The notes under the pieces are model-generated. The model searched no databases, had not been told where the DNA came from, and saw only the letters and a program-made list of their open reading frames with translations. Of a stretch of DNA of 64,000 bases, positions 3,005 to 20,643 are shown piece by piece (the stretch's first letter is position 1; every line of letters starts with the position of its first letter). The stretch comes from an uncultured Bacteroidota bacterium. GTDB taxonomy: Bacteria > Bacteroidota > Bacteroidia > Bacteroidales > F082. The stretch is taken from the NCBI GenBank assembly GCA_913009685.1, contig CAJVXP010000008.1, forward strand, positions 1-64,000, in the 5' to 3' direction. A program made the translations under genes and the position numbers.

Positions 3005-6000
3005 ATGACGGATAAAAAAGATTATATTGATTATAATGAAGCCGGAAAGTGGGAACGATTGAAATATTCCCTTCGTACATGGCGCAACATAGGTGTTGGT
3101 AAATCACTGTTTATATGGTTTTTGGCTATTTCTTTTGTTCCGTTGGCAGCCGTTAGTTTTATCAACTTTTTAACGGCTTATCAGGGACTGACCATTGTAG
3201 CTGAAAAATCTCTTAACGCGTCATCGCAACTGCGTTTAAAATATATCTATACTTTTTTTAATGAGGCCAGCGACTTTTTGGAAATCAATATCAGCTCTGT
3301 ACAGAAAAAGCAACAATTTGAAAAACTTGTCGCCGATTTTCAAAAAAGTAAACTTGATGTAGAAGAATTCGTCAATAGCAAGCGCTGGAAGGTGCTGACC
3401 AAACCGCTTTACCCGGAAATTAAGCCTTCCCTGAAATTGCAGAATTTTTATGATTTTCTCTTTATTGACACGAAAGGAAATGTCCTATTCAGCACCAGAG
3501 AAGAGAGTGATTTGGGAACTAATATTTTCCAGGGCAAAAAGCGTGATACACGTCTCTCCCGAACGGTGAAAAGAAGTCTTGATGAGCACAAAATGCTCTT
3601 TTCCGATTTGGAACGTTATGCGCCGAGCATGGGAATTATTTCGGGCTTTTTCATTCAGGCCGTTACAGACCAGCATCAAAAAGTTATCGGAGTATTTGCA
3701 TTGCAGATAACCATGCAAACCATCAACGGGATGATTCAACAGGAAGCCGGTTACGGAAAAACAGGCCAGGCTTTTCTCATTGGCTCCGACCTTTATCTGC
3801 GTTCCTCTACACGCTTTGGCGATAAATCCGAGATCCTGCGAAAAAAAATTATTAATAAAAAAACACTGGAATGGAAAGATTTTCTGCAACACCGTGATGA
3901 TAATGCATATCTGAAGTCCAATGGACTGGATGAAGAGCGGGTAACTACTTACGACACGGATGGTAAAGGGGATTATGTTTTGGGAATTTACAGAAACCTT
4001 TATCAGTTAGAGAAGTATGGCGTTCACTGGGCCTTGATTGAAGAAATATCCCACAAGGAAGCTTTTGCTTTTGCCCGGCGCTTGTCGGATATTGCAAAAA
4101 TAAGTTTCCTGATAACCATTTTAGTGGTTGTGCTTATCTCTATATTGGTTACGCGTTGGTTTGTTAATCCCATAAAACTGCTCTCGTCATGGGGAAAAGA
4201 GATATCAACCGGAAAACTTGTTCAGAAAGATATTAAAGCTCCGGGTAATGAGATCGGTGAGATGAAAGATACTTTTAACCAGCTGGTAGCGGCTTTAAAG
4301 ACCTATTCGGATATTGCCCGGTTAGTGGCCAAAGGCGATTTTAGCAGGCAGGTGGAAGAACGGGGGAAAGAAGATGTGCTGGCGCAATCCATTAACAAAA
4401 TGGTATCCAGTTTCCGGAAAGTTGTTGAACAGGCCGACCAAATTGCCGGTGGTGATTACAATACGCTGATAACCCCGCGTGGCGAAAACGATACATTGGG
4501 TAAGGCGCTGTTTAAAATGACCGAAACCCTGCGCAAAAATGCCGAAAAATTCCGTAGCGAAGACTGGCTTAAAACAGGACTTAATGAACTTGATGGTGTG
4601 CTAAAAGGAAAAGATAACATCAATGAGCTGAGCGATGGAATTATCAAATTCTTTTCCAACTATCTCGATGCACAGGTGGGACTGATTTATCTTTTTGATG
4701 AAGAACATAAACATTTGAAACTTTCGGGAACGTACGCTGTTTCGGACGATGGTACCCCAATAAAGAAGACCTATAAACCGGGAGAAGGAATTATAGGTCA
4801 GGTGTTTAATGACAAAAAACGGTTGCTAATTACAAACCACAACGATGATGATGTGCCGTTGATTGACATGGGTCTGGGAAGCAAAATTCCGCGGATGCTT
4901 GCCGTGGTGCCCTTCTCATTCGAAAACCAGGTGGTGGGCGTAATGGAAATTGGCTCAGTGAACAGCTTCACCGAACTACAACTTGGTTTTATGGATTTGG
5001 CTGTTCAGGATTTAGCGCTTGCCGTTATTACACTGAATTCGCATTTAAAAGTGCGTAAATTGCTTGAGCAGACCCAGGAACAAGCCAAGATTCTTGAAGT
5101 ACAGCAGGAAGAATTACGCCAGGCCAATGAGGAATTGCAGGAGCAGACCGAAGCGTTGAAACGTTCGGAAGAAAATCTCCAAACCCAGCAGGAGGAACTT
5201 AAAGTTACCAATGAAGAGCTAGAAGAGCGTACAAAAGCATTGGAAATTCAACGCGATGCCATAAGACGTAAAAACAAGGAGCTGGAAGAGGCTCGAAAAG
5301 AAATAGAAAAGAAAGCTAAAGACCTCGAAACCGCCAGCCGTTATAAATCGGAATTCCTCGCCAACATGTCGCACGAACTGCGTACGCCGCTCAATAGTAT
5401 TATTGTTCTTTCACAGTTGATGGGCGAGAATAAAAACAATAACCTGAGCGAAAAAGAGCGGGAATTTGCACGCACTATCAACTCCTCCGGAATAGATTTG
5501 CTAAACCTCATTAACGACATTCTGGATCTTTCAAAAGTGGAATCCGGGAAAGTTGAAGTTAATCTCGAACGGCTTTACCTCAAAGATTTGGGGACATTTG
5601 TGGAGGCTGGTTTTAAGCCGGTTGTTGAGGAAAAAGGGCTGAAATTGAAAGTGGAAAAAGAAAAGAACCTTCCCGAATTTATTGAAACCGATGTGCAAAG
5701 GGTAGAGCAGGTAATTAAAAATCTGATTTCCAATGCAATAAAATTTACCGAAAAAGGAGGTATCACCTTCAAAATGGGACGTTGTAAAGATGGGAGATTG
5801 CTGAAATCACTGGGAATGAATGCCGATGAAGCGCTTGCCCTGACTGTCGCCGATACGGGCATTGGAATTCCCAGGGAAAAGCAGGATGTTATTTTTGAAG
5901 CCTTTAAACAGGCCGATGGAACCACCAGCCGGAAATATGGCGGAACAGGACTTGGATTGAGTATTTCCAAAAGCTTTGCAGCTTTGCTTGGCGGAGCCGT

Positions 6001-7390
6001 CGGACTAATAAGCGATGAAAATAAAGGCACGGCCTTTACGCTTTACCTGCCCTGGAAATATGAGAAAGCCAAAGATATCGTACCAAAACCTCAACCGGAA
6101 GCCGAAGAAGACAAAGCTACACCTGAAGTTCAAAAACAGGAAAAGGAGCCTGAAATACCAAAAGCGCCCGCTGATATCCCTTTGGTAGAAGATGACCGCG
6201 GAACATTGCAGAAAGAGGATAAAAAAATCCTGATAATCGAAGATGACATTAATTTTGCCCGGGTACTAAAAGATCTGGCGCATGAGCACGACTACAAGGC
6301 CATTATAGCCTTAGATGGTGAAACCGGGCTTTATCATGCCGATTATTATCAGCCAGATGCCATTATTCTTGATCTCGGATTGCCCGGGATGGATGGCCAT
6401 GAGGTTATGAATCACCTGAAAGCCAATATAAAAACCAGAGCTATACCGGTGCACGTTATCTCGGCCAGCGATTTCGATATTGAACTGATGAAGAAAGGGG
6501 CTATTGGGTTTATCTCCAAACCGGTTACAAAAGAACAGGTAGATGCAGTCTTTGAGAAAATTGAGCAGATTACTTCTCAGCCGCTTAAGAGACTCCTCAT
6601 AGTGGAAGATGAGAAAATTACCAGAAAAAGCATCGAGAAACTGCTGAAAGACGACTCCCTGGAGATTATTTCTACAGAATCGGGAGAGAAAGCCGTTCAG
6701 TTACTGAAAGATGAAAAATTCGACTGCGTGGTACTTGATTTGGGGCTGAAGGATTTGAGTGGCTTTGATGTACTTGAGGAAATTCACAAAGATAAAAACG
6801 CAAGTAAAGTTCCCGTTGTTATTTATACGGCACGTGAGTTGAGTAGAGATGAAGACGAAATCCTGAAAAAGTATAGCAGTAGCATTATCTTAAAAGGCGC
6901 TCATTCGTTTGAACGGCTGTTGGACGAAACGACATTGTTTTTGCATCAGGTCGAATCCGATTTTACCGGCATTAAGAAAAAAATGACGGAAAAAATACAC
7001 AACGAAAACATCTTAAAGGATAAGACTATTTTGCTGGTTGATGATGATATGCGTAATGTTTTTGCTCTTTCCAGTTTACTTGAAAGTTACGATCTGAAAG
7101 TGATTATAGGGAAAAACGGAAAAGAGGCTATTGAGAAATTAAAAACACATGCGGATGAAGTTGACCTGGTTTTGATGGATATTATGATGCCGGAAATGAA
7201 TGGTTACGAGGCTATGAAGCTCATCCGAAAGGAAAAGAGATTTGAGAAATTACCCATAATTGCACTTACAGCAAAGGCCATGAAAGGAGACAGAGAGAAG
7301 TGTATTGCCGCCGGTGCAAACGAATACCTCTCAAAACCGGTTGAAAAAGAAAAACTTATTTCCATGCTCCGGGTTTGGCTGTACAAATAA
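3005..7390 (+). CDS. Membrane hybrid histidine kinase (sensor-HAMP-GAF-coil-HisKA-HATPase-REC x3)
   Basis: A very large (1461 aa) sensor kinase. A membrane helix at 33-57 and a second at about 366-387 enclose a periplasmic sensor of about 300 residues (dCache-like by size and position). HAMP follows at about 388-440, then a second HAMP-like stretch to 515, and a GAF domain at about 520-690. Next comes a long coiled coil of about 680-785 holding a 28-residue internal duplication (QQEEL at 700 and 728, each followed by NEEL and T-x-AL). HisKA has H790 (MSHELRTPLNS), the HATPase has DTGIGIP and GTGLGLSI, and three receivers carry phospho-acceptors D1123, D1245 and D1392. The layout resembles a chemoreceptor fused to a kinase, and CheR and CheB genes follow within 10 bp, so reversible glutamate methylation of the coil is a reasonable inference. 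No ligand can be named. Confidence 0.93.
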   Translation: MTDKKDYIDYNEAGKWERLKYSLRTWRNIGVGKSLFIWFLAISFVPLAAVSFINFLTAYQGLTIVAEKSLNASSQLRLKYIYTFFNEASDFLEINISSVQKKQQFEKLVADFQKSKLDVEEFVNSKRWKVLTKPLYPEIKPSLKLQNFYDFLFIDTKGNVLFSTREESDLGTNIFQGKKRDTRLSRTVKRSLDEHKMLFSDLERYAPSMGIISGFFIQAVTDQHQKVIGVFALQITMQTINGMIQQEAGYGKTGQAFLIGSDLYLRSSTRFGDKSEILRKKIINKKTLEWKDFLQHRDDNAYLKSNGLDEERVTTYDTDGKGDYVLGIYRNLYQLEKYGVHWALIEEISHKEAFAFARRLSDIAKISFLITILVVVLISILVTRWFVNPIKLLSSWGKEISTGKLVQKDIKAPGNEIGEMKDTFNQLVAALKTYSDIARLVAKGDFSRQVEERGKEDVLAQSINKMVSSFRKVVEQADQIAGGDYNTLITPRGENDTLGKALFKMTETLRKNAEKFRSEDWLKTGLNELDGVLKGKDNINELSDGIIKFFSNYLDAQVGLIYLFDEEHKHLKLSGTYAVSDDGTPIKKTYKPGEGIIGQVFNDKKRLLITNHNDDDVPLIDMGLGSKIPRMLAVVPFSFENQVVGVMEIGSVNSFTELQLGFMDLAVQDLALAVITLNSHLKVRKLLEQTQEQAKILEVQQEELRQANEELQEQTEALKRSEENLQTQQEELKVTNEELEERTKALEIQRDAIRRKNKELEEARKEIEKKAKDLETASRYKSEFLANMSHELRTPLNSIIVLSQLMGENKNNNLSEKEREFARTINSSGIDLLNLINDILDLSKVESGKVEVNLERLYLKDLGTFVEAGFKPVVEEKGLKLKVEKEKNLPEFIETDVQRVEQVIKNLISNAIKFTEKGGITFKMGRCKDGRLLKSLGMNADEALALTVADTGIGIPREKQDVIFEAFKQADGTTSRKYGGTGLGLSISKSFAALLGGAVGLISDENKGTAFTLYLPWKYEKAKDIVPKPQPEAEEDKATPEVQKQEKEPEIPKAPADIPLVEDDRGTLQKEDKKILIIEDDINFARVLKDLAHEHDYKAIIALDGETGLYHADYYQPDAIILDLGLPGMDGHEVMNHLKANIKTRAIPVHVISASDFDIELMKKGAIGFISKPVTKEQVDAVFEKIEQITSQPLKRLLIVEDEKITRKSIEKLLKDDSLEIISTESGEKAVQLLKDEKFDCVVLDLGLKDLSGFDVLEEIHKDKNASKVPVVIYTARELSRDEDEILKKYSSSIILKGAHSFERLLDETTLFLHQVESDFTGIKKKMTEKIHNENILKDKTILLVDDDMRNVFALSSLLESYDLKVIIGKNGKEAIEKLKTHADEVDLVLMDIMMPEMNGYEAMKLIRKEKRFEKLPIIALTAKAMKGDREKCIAAGANEYLSKPVEKEKLISMLRVWLYK

Positions 7391-16937: not shown

Positions 16938-17525
16938 TTAATTAAGATTTGGGTTTTGGGGAAATTTGTCCCATAAACGATAATCCTGGCCAAGTTTCCG
17001 GGTAAGCTTTTTCCAAAGCTCATCGGTTTTGGTTTTAAAAATAATATCGGCAGAAGCTGTAACGATAGCCCATGAATTTCTTTTTAGCTCTTCTTTCATT
17101 TGTTGAGCGCCCCAGCCCGAATAACCAATGAAGAACCGGCTGTTTTCCGGGGTGAGACGTTTCAGACGTGCCAGCTCCAGAATATCCTCCATGTTTCCAC
17201 CCCAGTAGAGTCCTTTGAGTACCTGAATGGAGTCGCCAATCTCATTGCCCAGTGTATGTATAAAAAACAAACGACCGGGATCTACTGGTCCGCCAAGAAA
17301 CAACGGAATATCCAACTCGGGAAAATCTTCCGTAACTTCGTTAAGCATTCGGCTTACCGGCTTGTTGAGGATAAGTCCGAAAGAGCCTTCAGGATTGTGC
17401 TCGGCCAGAAGAATGACTGCACGGCCAAAGTAATAATCGCCCATAAAAGGTTCGGAAAGCAACAACCGGCCTTTTGCAGGCTTTAAATTATTGGGTTTTA
17501 TTTGTACCAGCCGGTCGATTTTCAT
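16938..17525 (-). CDS. YqgE/AlgH family protein
   Basis: A 195-residue single-domain protein of the YqgE/AlgH (DUF179) family. Marks are GRLLLSEPFMGDYYFGRAV at the N terminus, the GSFGLILNKP motif, FLGGPVDPGRLFFIHT and the FIGYSGWGAQQ motif near the C terminus; length is normal for the family. The molecular role is not established; AlgH was first linked to alginate regulation in Pseudomonas, and the fold binds an unknown ligand. The gene is divergent from murL, with about 60 bp between the starts. It starts right beside the repeat element. Confidence 0.92.
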   Translation of the reverse strand: MKIDRLVQIKPNNLKPAKGRLLLSEPFMGDYYFGRAVILLAEHNPEGSFGLILNKPVSRMLNEVTEDFPELDIPLFLGGPVDPGRLFFIHTLGNEIGDSIQVLKGLYWGGNMEDILELARLKRLTPENSRFFIGYSGWGAQQMKEELKRNSWAIVTASADIIFKTKTDELWKKLTRKLGQDYRLWDKFPQNPNLN

Positions 17526-17586: not shown

Positions 17587-18972
17587 TTGGATAAGACACA
17601 CCATCATAACAGGTTCCTGAAGCTGCGAAAAGCTTATCCTTACTTTGTGTTCCAAAGTTATTCAATATTCCGGACAAAAACAAGTTTGCAGGCAAAATTT
17701 ATTTTCAACCTTGCAGACAAATACACTTTTCAACCGGAAATAGAGATCCCTTTTCGGGATTTTTACAACGTTGAAAAGTTGTCGGGAAAAGTGATGGAAA
17801 ACATGATTTTCCACATCGGTATGATCGAACTTGTCAGTTACTGGAAAGCCGCTTGTCCACCCAAAGTTATTGTTCGGGCAGGCCGTTTGGATGAGAGACA
17901 AATAGCCTGGTGGAAGAAACTTTATTTTCATGGTTTGGGTGAGTTTTTTTACCTGAATGGTGTTACAACGGACATGGCGTCGTTCATGGAAATTATCCCG
18001 GAAGGGAAAGCCGGTGAAATTTCAACGGTTTCGCTGGATAGCCAACAAGTGCTTGTACCAATTGGCGGAGGCAAGGATTCGGTGGTGAGCCTGGAACTTT
18101 TGAAAAACAATGATTTAAAGGTGCGACCGTTTTTGCTGAACCCCCGTGAAGCCGGCCTTCGTTCCATCGATATTGCCGGTTTTTCAGAAAAGGAAGCGGT
18201 TGTGGTAAACAGAAAGCTCGATCCGGAATTATTGAAATTAAATAAAGCCGGTTTCCTGAACGGACACACCCCTTTTTCGGCCTTGCTGGCTTTTGTATCT
18301 GCTTTTACGGCGCTTTTGTCGGGTATCGGAAACATTGCGCTTTCCAATGAAAGCAGCGCCAACCAAAGTACCGTCCCCGGTTCCAAAATAAACCATCAAT
18401 ATTCCAAATCATTTGAATTTGAACAGGACTTTGACTGGTATCTAAAAAATTATATCCATCCTGAGCTGCGTTATTTCAGCTTTTTGCGTCCGCTAAACGA
18501 ATTGCAGATTGCCGCATTGTTTTCCAGATTTCCGCAGCACCATTTTAGTTTCAGAAGCTGCAATGCAGGCAGCAAAACGGATAGCTGGTGCGGAAATTGT
18601 CCCAAATGTCTGTTTACTTACGTGATTTTGTCACCCTTTTTGCCACAGGAAAAATTAGAGAAAATCTTTGGTACGAACCTGCTGAAAGATGAAAAATTGG
18701 TTCCTGTGATGGACGAACTGGATGGAAAAGCAGCAGTGAAACCTTTTGAGTGTGTGGGTACGCCGGAAGAAGTAAATGCTGCACTTTGGAAATCCGTTGA
18801 GATAAAAAGTGTTGATGTGCAATTTCCATTGGTGAAAATAGCCACGTATCCGGAAAAGGCCGGAGATGAAGAGGCTTTCAAAGAATTGCTTCATCATTTG
18901 AATCACGAGCATTTGCTTCCGCAGAAATTTTTACAATGGATAAAACAAGCCATAGCCGATGCTGCCGTTTAA
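17587..18972 (+). CDS. murL: UDP-N-acetylmuramoyl-L-alanyl-L-glutamate epimerase (MurL)
   Basis: MurL converts the L-glutamate of UDP-MurNAc-L-Ala-L-Glu into D-glutamate, using ATP. The sequence shows the PP-loop-like VPIGGGKDSVVSLELL, then NESSANQSTV, FSFLRPLNELQIAALF and the Cys-rich SWCGNCPKC motif, all typical of this family. The gene overlaps a MurD homologue by 14 bp, the same pairing as MurL-MurD2 in Xanthomonas. With this pair a cell can make peptidoglycan without a free-standing glutamate racemase (MurI). I chose a TTG start at 17587 (461 aa) because the frame upstream, from an ATG at 17491, is antisense to yqgE and does not look coding. The start is uncertain; the identity is fairly sure. 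Confidence 0.85.
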   Translation: MDKTHHHNRFLKLRKAYPYFVFQSYSIFRTKTSLQAKFIFNLADKYTFQPEIEIPFRDFYNVEKLSGKVMENMIFHIGMIELVSYWKAACPPKVIVRAGRLDERQIAWWKKLYFHGLGEFFYLNGVTTDMASFMEIIPEGKAGEISTVSLDSQQVLVPIGGGKDSVVSLELLKNNDLKVRPFLLNPREAGLRSIDIAGFSEKEAVVVNRKLDPELLKLNKAGFLNGHTPFSALLAFVSAFTALLSGIGNIALSNESSANQSTVPGSKINHQYSKSFEFEQDFDWYLKNYIHPELRYFSFLRPLNELQIAALFSRFPQHHFSFRSCNAGSKTDSWCGNCPKCLFTYVILSPFLPQEKLEKIFGTNLLKDEKLVPVMDELDGKAAVKPFECVGTPEEVNAALWKSVEIKSVDVQFPLVKIATYPEKAGDEEAFKELLHHLNHEHLLPQKFLQWIKQAIADAAV

Positions 18973-20251
18973 TGAAATATTTTCGGAAGGGAAATCCGTA
19001 CTAATCCTAGGCTTTGGCAAAGAGGGACACTCAACGTATCACTTTTTGTCAAAACATTTTCCCGGTTGTAAAACCGCCGTGGCCGACCGGAATACTGCTC
19101 TTGCCGATGAAAACCTTTCCGTACCGATGTATCTCGGAGACGATTATCTGCAAGCCGTTAAGGATTACGATATTGTGATGAAATCGCCGGGAATTTCCCC
19201 GGAAGGCATTCCTGAAAATCTTAAATCGAAAATCACTTCCCAAACCGACCTTTTTCTACAGACTTATGGCCGGCAAACCATCGGCGTTACCGGAACCAAA
19301 GGAAAAAGCACGACAGCAAGCCTGATTTATCATTTGCTGAAAAATACCGGCAAAAAGGCTGTTCTGATGGGAAATATCGGGTTGCCGGCCTTTGATTTTC
19401 TGGGAAAAATCGATGCTGACGACCTGATTGTTTACGAATTGTCGGCACATCAGCTTGAGTTTGTACACAGCAGTCCGCACGTTGCTGTGCTGGTGAATCT
19501 GTTTCCGGAACATCTGGATCATTTCGGGACTTTTGAAAGATACAAACAAGCCAAGCTGAATATCTTCCGCTTCCGGCAGCCTGGCGACCGTGCTTTTTGT
19601 GGTGATCAGCTGGAGGAACAAACCGGCGTTTGTGAAACGACCACAGAAGCGGAAAAAGTTTTTGGCCACAGCTTTCGTCCACAAGAACTGTTGCAGCGTA
19701 CCGGACTGCGGGGAGAACATAACCTGAAAAATATATATCTGGCATTTCATGTTTTACACTGTCTGGGAACGTCGCTTGCCGTGTTGCCTGAGGCTTTATC
19801 CGGTTTCCGTACTTTGCCACACCGGCTGGAATACGTGGGGAAATTTGGCGGAGTTGACTTTTATAACGATAGCATTTCGACGGTTCCACAATCTACAATG
19901 GCGGCGGTAAAAAGTGTGGATAGTGTGGATGCACTCATCCTCGGCGGTTTCGACCGCGGCCTTGATTACTCAGGGCTGGTCGGTTTTTTAATTGGAACTG
20001 ACATTAAAAATATTTTCTTTCTCGGAAAAGCGGGAGAGAGGATGCTGAAGTTGTTTAACACCCGGAAAAACGACAAAAATCTTTATCTGGTGAATGATCT
20101 TGCGGCAGTCTTTCAACGGTTGCAAAGTCTTCAGGATGTTTCCTGTTGCCTTTTATCACCGGCGGCAGCGAGCTACGACCAGTTTCACAATTTCGAACAC
20201 AGGGGAGATATTTTTAAAAAGCTGGCCGGTGAATTTCTGAGGGAGAAATAA
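18959..20251 (+). CDS. murD2: MurD-type ligase, likely UDP-MurNAc-L-Ala:L-glutamate ligase (MurD2)
   Basis: A 430-residue Mur ligase. It has an N-terminal Rossmann-like domain (VLILGFGKEG), the ATP-binding GVTGTKGKSTTASLIYHLL, the central NLFPEHLDHFGTFERY stretch with metal-binding His, and the C-terminal HRLEYVGKFGGVDFYNDS...AAVKS ligase signature ending in LLSPAAASYDQF. Classical MurD adds D-glutamate to UDP-MurNAc-L-alanine. Here the gene starts inside murL, and by analogy with Xanthomonas it probably adds L-glutamate, which MurL then epimerises. L- versus D-specificity cannot be read from the residues alone. Cytoplasmic. Confidence 0.85.
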   Translation: MLPFNEIFSEGKSVLILGFGKEGHSTYHFLSKHFPGCKTAVADRNTALADENLSVPMYLGDDYLQAVKDYDIVMKSPGISPEGIPENLKSKITSQTDLFLQTYGRQTIGVTGTKGKSTTASLIYHLLKNTGKKAVLMGNIGLPAFDFLGKIDADDLIVYELSAHQLEFVHSSPHVAVLVNLFPEHLDHFGTFERYKQAKLNIFRFRQPGDRAFCGDQLEEQTGVCETTTEAEKVFGHSFRPQELLQRTGLRGEHNLKNIYLAFHVLHCLGTSLAVLPEALSGFRTLPHRLEYVGKFGGVDFYNDSISTVPQSTMAAVKSVDSVDALILGGFDRGLDYSGLVGFLIGTDIKNIFFLGKAGERMLKLFNTRKNDKNLYLVNDLAAVFQRLQSLQDVSCCLLSPAAASYDQFHNFEHRGDIFKKLAGEFLREK

Positions 20252-20280: not shown

Positions 20281-20643
20281 TTATGCTTCTTTTTTATCTG
20301 CCTTTGGCTTGGTCACTTCTTCTTCTTTAGGCTTGGCGGCAGTTTTTCTGGCAGTTGACTTTTTAATGATTGGTTTTTTCGCTACAGGTATTTTAGTTTT
20401 CTTTTCTTCGGTTTTAGCTGCCGTGGTAGTCTTTTTTACCATCGCTTTCGTAGCTGTTGCTTTTTTGGCAGCAGTCTTCTTCACTTTGGGCTTTTCCCCG
20501 GCAACCTCAACTTTTATTTCCTTTGGGATCTCAGCAACAACCGGTTTCTCAAACTTAGCTTTCAGTTTTTTCCTTCTTCTCAATCTTCCGTACGAACCAT
20601 TTACAATTTTACCTCTTTTCGTCTTTTTGTCACCTTTTCCCAT
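20281..20643 (-). CDS. Small-subunit ribosomal protein bTHX with histone H1-like tail
   Basis: The first 25 residues, MGKGDKKTKRGKIVNGSYGR, are the signature of bTHX, a tiny protein that fills a cavity at the top of the 30S head in Thermus and is found across Bacteroidota. Typical members are only about 25-70 residues; this one is 120. Residues about 33-120 form a low-complexity tail rich in Lys, Ala, Thr, Pro and Glu with repeated AAKK / KKxxA blocks, like the C-terminal domain of eukaryotic or bacterial H1-like proteins. The tail may bind rRNA or DNA (inference). The gene has its own terminator and stands alone. Confidence 0.75.
   Translation of the reverse strand: MGKGDKKTKRGKIVNGSYGRLRRRKKLKAKFEKPVVAEIPKEIKVEVAGEKPKVKKTAAKKATATKAMVKKTTTAAKTEEKKTKIPVAKKPIIKKSTARKTAAKPKEEEVTKPKADKKEA

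Follow-up and report, generated by a model that had tools for sequence, protein, structure and literature searches.

A MurL-MurD2 gene pair as the probable source of peptidoglycan D-glutamate in a Bacteroidales bacterium

The first 64,000 nucleotides of contig CAJVXP010000008.1 (the window; contig C8 of assembly GCA_913009685.1), from an uncultured bacterium of the order Bacteroidales, carry two overlapping genes, murL and murD2, predicted to encode a MurL-type epimerase and a MurD-type ligase. We propose, at a probability of roughly 0.9, that this pair supplies the D-glutamate of peptidoglycan in this bacterium, and a large, mostly uncultured group within the Bacteroidales appears to make its wall D-glutamate in the same way, by flipping L-glutamate on the precursor. 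MurD2 would add L-glutamate to the nucleotide precursor and MurL would epimerise this terminal residue to the D form, with conversion of ATP to AMP, as in the MurD2-MurL pathway of Xanthomonas oryzae (XOO_1320/XOO_1319; PMC8788868); the product would then join the ordinary MurE-MraY path, for which the genes are present. An initial annotation of the window had noted the overlapping pair and suggested that this route makes both the glutamate racemase MurI and free D-glutamate unnecessary. The pair itself was borne out by profile matches to both genes, and our computations support the suggestion, with the qualifications given below, in that the genome gave no MurI match and MurD2 carries residues of the L-glutamate type.

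MurL, MurI and the specificity of MurD2

The assembly that contains the window (2.11 Mb in 64 contigs, 2.1% contamination) is 87.8% complete, and a search of it for murI, which the initial annotation had advised, gave no match to PF01177 and none to TIGR00067, with no search made for DapF or other racemase families; as a positive control, each of the two models found a match in 10 of 14 control genomes. We sampled 198 genomes from the order: MurL was present in 67, with E never above 2.4e-60, and MurI scored over its cut-off in 120; none had both and 11 had neither. Fifty-three of the 67 MurL genomes are at least 90% complete, and none of the 67 had MurI over the cut-off; nine gave weak TIGR00067 matches below it, seven of which are frames of 231–250 amino acids that are perhaps aspartate racemase-like. 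MurL, single-copy in each genome that has it, occurred in 43 of the 120 families sampled, and no family mixed MurL and MurI genomes. The exclusion gave a Fisher p of 1e-41 on genomes that are not independent, as they belong to one clade: in a tree of MraY and FtsW (84 rows), 57 MurL genomes fell on one branch (Shimodaira-Hasegawa-like approximate likelihood-ratio test, SH-aLRT, 93) together with a fragmentary genome (G187) that has neither MurL nor MurI. Since the MurL genomes form one clade, the best reading is a single replacement that has been inherited ever since: the pair would have displaced MurI in the common ancestor of this large clade of Bacteroidales. In a separate sample of 375 genomes of the phylum, MurL was found in one, the window's own, and MurI in 316 at E 1e-20 (315 over the cut-off); the other 58 (e.g., G234, G261, G273 and G200) had neither MurI at E 1e-20 nor MurL.

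Some further observations concern the distribution of these genes. Two genomes of one genus (G075 and G179, 99% complete) have a full MurD and lack both MurL and an over-cut-off MurI, which implies another source of D-glutamate, and a further genome of the order (G015, 98% complete) gave no match to MurL, MurI or MurD (the last at E 1e-45) and is possibly wall-less or has an unusual wall. A contig titled Lachnospiraceae bacterium (L252) encodes a MurL of the Bacteroidales kind (48% identical), and is perhaps part of a misnamed or contaminated metagenome-assembled genome. A MurL-like gene annotated as a hypothetical protein also lies on the predicted mobilizable plasmid pPaSha1 of Pseudonocardia alni (4803–6203; L271); its product has a GGGRDS motif and the cysteine cluster, and none of the annotated neighbours listed is a murD.

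MurD2 passes the cut-off of the MurD profile TIGR01087 (Table 1) and is 29% identical to MurD2 of X. sacchari. As reported by Ogasawara and Dairi (PMC8788868), X. oryzae MurD2 adds L-glutamate, with its preference set by E197 and R358 (equivalent to D182 and K348 of E. coli MurD); a double mutant changed to D and K becomes a D-glutamate ligase, and E. coli MurD with K319T accepts L-glutamate. At the positions of E. coli D182, K319 and K348 the window MurD2 has E184, I306 and R333, and X. sacchari MurD2 likewise has E, I and R. We read these sites in MurD2 from 65 of the 67 MurL genomes (G054 had no MurD2 found and that of G058 is cut at a contig end), one copy being readable at E only; 63 of the 64 homologues readable at each site had all three residues, and the remaining one had D for E. 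By comparison, D, K and K were present in 63 of 63 canonical MurDs and E, I and R in none. This canonical set comprised 33 MurDs from the division and cell wall (dcw) cluster of MurL genomes (33 of the 34 full or near-full copies, excluding that of G012, which is missing the first 48 profile positions, and three contig-cut ones) and 30 from MurL-negative genomes (the best-scoring of 41 searched; 23 from genomes with MurI and 7 from genomes with neither gene). Seventeen further sites, making 20 in all, separate MurD2 from canonical MurD. In a tree of 53 rows, with MurDs drawn at random, a single branch (SH-aLRT 97) separated canonical MurD from the MurD2 proteins of X. sacchari and the Bacteroidales, and we accordingly rejected a plain duplicate of the Bacteroidales MurD; the branches of X. 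sacchari and E. coli are long, and this placement is less firm than the shared residues. The residues thus support the window MurD2 being of the L-glutamate type, and the D-glutamate-specific MurD2 that the initial annotation had named as counter-evidence was not found.

The two genes also travel together. Of the 67 MurL genomes, 55 have murL followed directly by murD2 on the same strand, and in three more (G079, G183 and G107; loci L051, L067 and L059) one continuous frame, 885, 921 or 949 amino acids long, encodes both, so that 58 pairs are adjacent or fused; the genes lie apart in eight genomes, and murD2 was not found in one (G054). With frames that are intact, conserved and linked to this extent, an origin of the pair by chance or as pseudogenes was ruled out. 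Apart from G054, the MurL genomes carry MurD2, either in addition to the dcw MurD or where no complete dcw copy is left. In G054 (L070, L296) the MurL frame has one internal stop and the dcw MurD is a C-terminal piece; we read this genome as a decaying or incompletely assembled case.

Family and predicted fold of MurL

Against the NCBIfam model of Xanthomonadales MurL (NF041275), the window MurL scored 259.7 bits (E 3.6e-77) over profile positions 53–443 of 447. All 67 MurL homologues have a PP-loop (ATP pyrophosphatase) motif, which reads GGGKDS in 65 and takes the textbook form SGGKDS in two. Four cysteines are also invariant, spaced Cx9Cx2Cx2C in 65 homologues and with x10 in the other two, and MurL of X. 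sacchari has GGGKDS and WCGVCPKC with its first cysteine 16 residues before. Going by this spacing and by the aligned ranges, the cysteines are a probable QueC-like metal site, and MurL would accordingly be expected to bind a metal.

We modelled MurL with AlphaFold2 from an alignment of 63 of the 67 homologues (omitting the three fusions and the frame with a stop in G054), and obtained a predicted local distance difference test score (pLDDT) of 94.1 and a predicted template modelling score (pTM) of 0.93. Aligned to solved structures with VIA-align, the model best matched QatC (Z 18.9, 326 residues, root-mean-square deviation (rmsd) 3.8), followed by QueC (Z 13.9, 203 residues, rmsd 3.6) and Cap9 (Z 13.2, 167 residues, rmsd 2.3), with the following rows at Z of about 9. 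Foldseek likewise ranked QatC first (E 7e-4), QueC second (E 1.4e-3) and Cap9 twelfth. At the level of profiles, the QueC family PF06508 matched 17 of the 63 MurL members weakly (E up to 1; best E 0.003) and gave no match at E up to 1 to the window MurL itself, while a TtuA PP-loop profile matched MurL at E 4.6e-5, in weak support of a PP-loop enzyme. A search of the PDB with the single MurL sequence returned no match. Two results count against the fold assignment: the Foldseek TM-score (template modelling score) to QatC is modest, at 0.38–0.41, and the best Pfam match for 57 of the 63 members is DUF6395 (best E 5e-5), a family with no assigned function. We regard the model as a confident one that resembles QatC and QueC, PP-loop enzymes that form AMP.

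QueC uses ATP to activate a carboxylate, and this chemistry, taken with the QueC/QatC-like fold, leads us to propose adenylation of the glutamate alpha-carboxylate by MurL. This step would acidify the alpha proton and allow the stereocentre to be inverted, after which water would release AMP. MurL has been described as an enzyme without a known conserved domain that converts ATP to AMP (PMC5808125, PMC8788868), and Ogasawara and Dairi had hypothesised adenylation of the alpha-carboxylate on chemical grounds (PMC8788868). Our literature searches for a link between MurL and QueC or QatC found none, and the terms MurL and peptidoglycan are absent from the main texts of a QueC-family survey published in 2026 (PMC13329287) and of a paper on the structure of QatC (PMC13279940).

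The canonical MurD and other sources of D-glutamate

The initial annotation had also suggested a search for a second murD, and one was found: contig C12 of the window genome carries a complete dcw cluster, murE-mraY-murD-ftsW-murG-murC, whose MurD is canonical (398 bits) with residues of the D-glutamate type. The canonical ligase has therefore not been discarded, and an intact dcw MurD is hard to explain if free D-glutamate is never present. The genome further encodes two class-IV aminotransferases, both under the cut-off of TIGR01121 (D-amino-acid transaminase), one of which is an orphan on contig C21 that scores 95 bits as a D-amino-acid transaminase (cut-off 277) and 99 bits as a branched-chain transaminase (cut-off 279) and is a possible minor source of D-glutamate. 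The suggestion that free D-glutamate is unnecessary is supported with qualifications: no MurI was found, but the canonical ligase is kept and the aminotransferase could provide a minor amount. Along with these two findings, several points weigh against assigning peptidoglycan D-glutamate to MurL and MurD2. The assembly is 87.8% complete; the exclusion of MurI by MurL is a single phylogenetic event and not 67 independent cases; identity to X. sacchari MurL is low (36.8% over 326 amino acids); and the curated NF041275 cut-off of 700 bits was reached neither by the window MurL nor in any of the 198 genomes of the order, so that the protein is best called MurL-like, outside that narrow equivalog model.

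The state of the dcw murD across the 67 MurL genomes bears on this question. The gene was full or near-full in 34 genomes, cut by a contig end in three, and absent beside mraY in two (G077 and G181), while mraY was not found in two. In the remaining 26 (loci L110–L122, L294–L296 and L298–L307), MurD is a C-terminal piece of about 180 amino acids, which lies directly before ftsW in all 26 and after mraY in 25 (in G005 the contig ends first). The piece appears to start at or near a methionine that aligns with position 267 of the dcw MurD in the window genome, a methionine also present in full MurDs (31 of 33 from MurL genomes and 24 of 30 from MurL-negative ones), and has a normal C-terminal end. 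None of the 41 MurL-negative genomes searched had a lone C-terminal piece at E 1e-45; 39 had one MurD over the cut-off, one had MurD in two pieces on two contigs and one had none. The remnant was seen in 26 of 65 MurL genomes vs. 0 of 40 MurL-negative genomes (p 4e-7, with genomes that are not independent).

The remnants are under purifying selection. In seven pairs (six of the same genus, one of the same family), with amino-acid identities of 41–74%, second codon positions were the most conserved and third positions the least; synonymous sites were largely saturated, and since dS was saturated or undefined in most pairs we give no ratio of nonsynonymous to synonymous substitution (dN/dS). The glutamate-binding K348 was kept in 7 of the 26 remnants, D317 in 26 and H301 in 24. 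A model of the remnant matched the C-terminal domain of MurD (Z 25.3, 141 residues, rmsd 1.2), with a low-confidence helix in front. Truncation is also repeated: a tree of MraY, FtsW and MurG (58 genomes) needed 12 changes of state, at least five of them forced by well-supported branches, and four reduced/full sister pairs were well supported both in this tree and in that of MraY and FtsW (G049/G159, G034/G148, G073/G177 and G094/G196). In a comparison of 89 rows, the best full-length match of the reduced copy was the sister's full copy in G049, G073 (tied) and G094, and not in G034. Among full MurDs, the ratio of N- to C-terminal distance was 1.27 in MurL genomes vs. 1.12 in MurL-negative ones, which points to slightly quicker relative change of the N-terminal part in the former, although the catalytic residues were kept in 33 of 33 full dcw MurDs of MurL genomes.

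Our proposal for this pattern is that the arrival of MurL-MurD2 freed the dcw D-glutamate ligase from its essential reaction, leaving it intact in some lineages, that of the window included, and as the C-terminal domain only in many others. We tentatively suggest, at a little under even odds, that this domain has a non-catalytic function within the dcw cluster, such as holding precursor synthesis to MraY and FtsW, and that at least four lineages, perhaps twelve, kept only it once MurL-MurD2 had taken over the chemistry; the intact MurD of the window genome would then be open to the same fate. A literature search on truncated MurD returned nothing on the subject by title or start of abstract.

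The intact MurD could instead mean that MurL-MurD2 is auxiliary or conditional, standing beside a free D-glutamate route in which the canonical ligase is fed either by a class-IV aminotransferase or by a DapF of relaxed specificity, an enzyme reported to make D-glutamate in Chlamydia. Besides the D-glutamate-type MurD and the C21 aminotransferase of the window genome, the 34 full or near-full and three contig-cut copies among the 67 MurL genomes fit this account, as does an association between the two genes: full MurD occurred in 14 of 17 MurL genomes with the aminotransferase vs. 14 of 31 without it (n = 48, omitting G020 and G077 and counting the contig-cut G107 as full; Fisher p 0.016, uncorrected for kinship). 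However, in a search of 50 of the 67 MurL and 30 of the 120 MurI genomes, the aminotransferase was no commoner in the former (18 of 50) than in the latter (16 of 30), which ruled it out as a general substitute for MurI; of the four sister pairs with contrasting dcw states, only G148/G034 follows the association and the other three are neutral; and where full MurD has been lost, MurL-MurD2 would have to suffice. We consider this account improbable. We give far less credence to the idea that the pair makes some other L-to-D modified nucleotide or peptide, for a secondary metabolite or polymer, with wall D-glutamate coming from the environment or from recycling. The limited identity to MurL and MurD2 of X. 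sacchari (37% and 29%) would suit such a role, and scavenging of D-glutamate is conceivable in peptidoglycan-rich habitats, but MurL is found throughout a clade in which MurI was not, at one copy per genome and across 43 families, and in 25 of the 26 genomes with a remnant dcw MurD (the exception being G054) MurD2, complete or contig-cut, is the only other MurD found.

If peptidoglycan D-glutamate is indeed supplied by MurL and MurD2, the known route extends to a large clade of Bacteroidota, and the fold gives a structural frame to an epimerase that reviews of 2018 and 2021 call one without a known conserved domain. An essential ligase would have been displaced by a non-orthologous pair and then repeatedly pared down to a single conserved domain, so that these lineages would offer a natural test of which functions MurD has apart from ligation. 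If our further proposals are also true, a Mur ligase domain would have a role of a new kind, and the QueC fold would gain a new reaction, inversion of a stereocentre by adenylation.

The locus and its known relatives

The coordinates of the pair are given in Table 1. The murL frame is open from 17437, with a listed start at 17491; judging from the N-termini of homologues, the homologous part begins at about TTG 17587, giving 461 amino acids. The overlap with murD2 makes translational coupling of the two genes likely. An AlgH/DUF179 gene lies 5′ of murL on the opposite strand, and the convergent 3′ neighbours of murD2 encode a lysine-rich Thx-like protein and a SpoU-family methylase. The Thx-like ribosomal protein (20281–20643, minus strand) has a long C-terminal tail rich in lysine and alanine, with a weak match to the histone H1-like HC2.

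Table 1. Positions of the murL-murD2 pair and its motifs in the window.
Feature	Position	Strand	Evidence
murL, MurL-type epimerase (predicted)	17587..18972	+	NF041275, 260 bits; 36.8% identity to X. sacchari MurL; AlphaFold2 model
MurL PP-loop motif GGGKDS	18064..18081	+	GGGKDS in 65/67 homologues, SGGKDS in 2/67
MurL four-cysteine stretch CNAGSKTDSWCGNCPKC, probable QueC-like metal site	18559..18609	+	Cysteines invariant in 67/67; spacing
murD2, MurD-type ligase, ATG start, 430 amino acids	18959..20251	+	TIGR01087, 301 bits (cut-off 212); groups with X. sacchari MurD2, SH-aLRT 97
murL/murD2 overlap, 14 nt	18959..18972	+	Sequence
MurD2 E184 (E. coli D182), predicted L-glutamate specificity residue	19508..19510	+	E in 64/65 MurD2
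MurD2 I306 (E. coli K319)	19874..19876	+	I in 64/64 readable MurD2 and in X. sacchari MurD2
MurD2 R333 (E. coli K348), predicted L-glutamate specificity residue	19955..19957	+	R in 64/64 readable MurD2

In agreement with the Xanthomonas pathway, the order is murL then murD2 with a short overlap (20 nt in X. sacchari and 14 nt in the window), MurD2 has E, I and R, MurL has GGGKDS and WCxxCxKC, and no MurI was found. The Bacteroidales system differs in having, in the window, A and Y at the positions of Xanthomonas P433 and F435, in the fusion of the pair in 3 of the 67 genomes, and in its phylum, Bacteroidota not being among the taxa named in the parts of PMC8788868 and PMC5808125 consulted. In the Bacteroidales the pair is accompanied by a dcw MurD, either intact or reduced. 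Relative to canonical MurD of E. coli and of the Bacteroidales dcw cluster, MurD2 shares the Mur ligase fold and the catalytic residues (P-loop K115, N138, H183 and K198), and departs from it in the stereospecificity residues and the 17 further sites. MurL, in turn, resembles QatC (of the qatABCD defence system), QueC and Cap9 in its predicted fold over most of its length, in its PP-loop (SGGxDS/GGGKDS) and in a cysteine cluster of the QueC/Cap9 kind, while its identity to them is 11–20% and its reaction, an epimerisation, would be of another kind.

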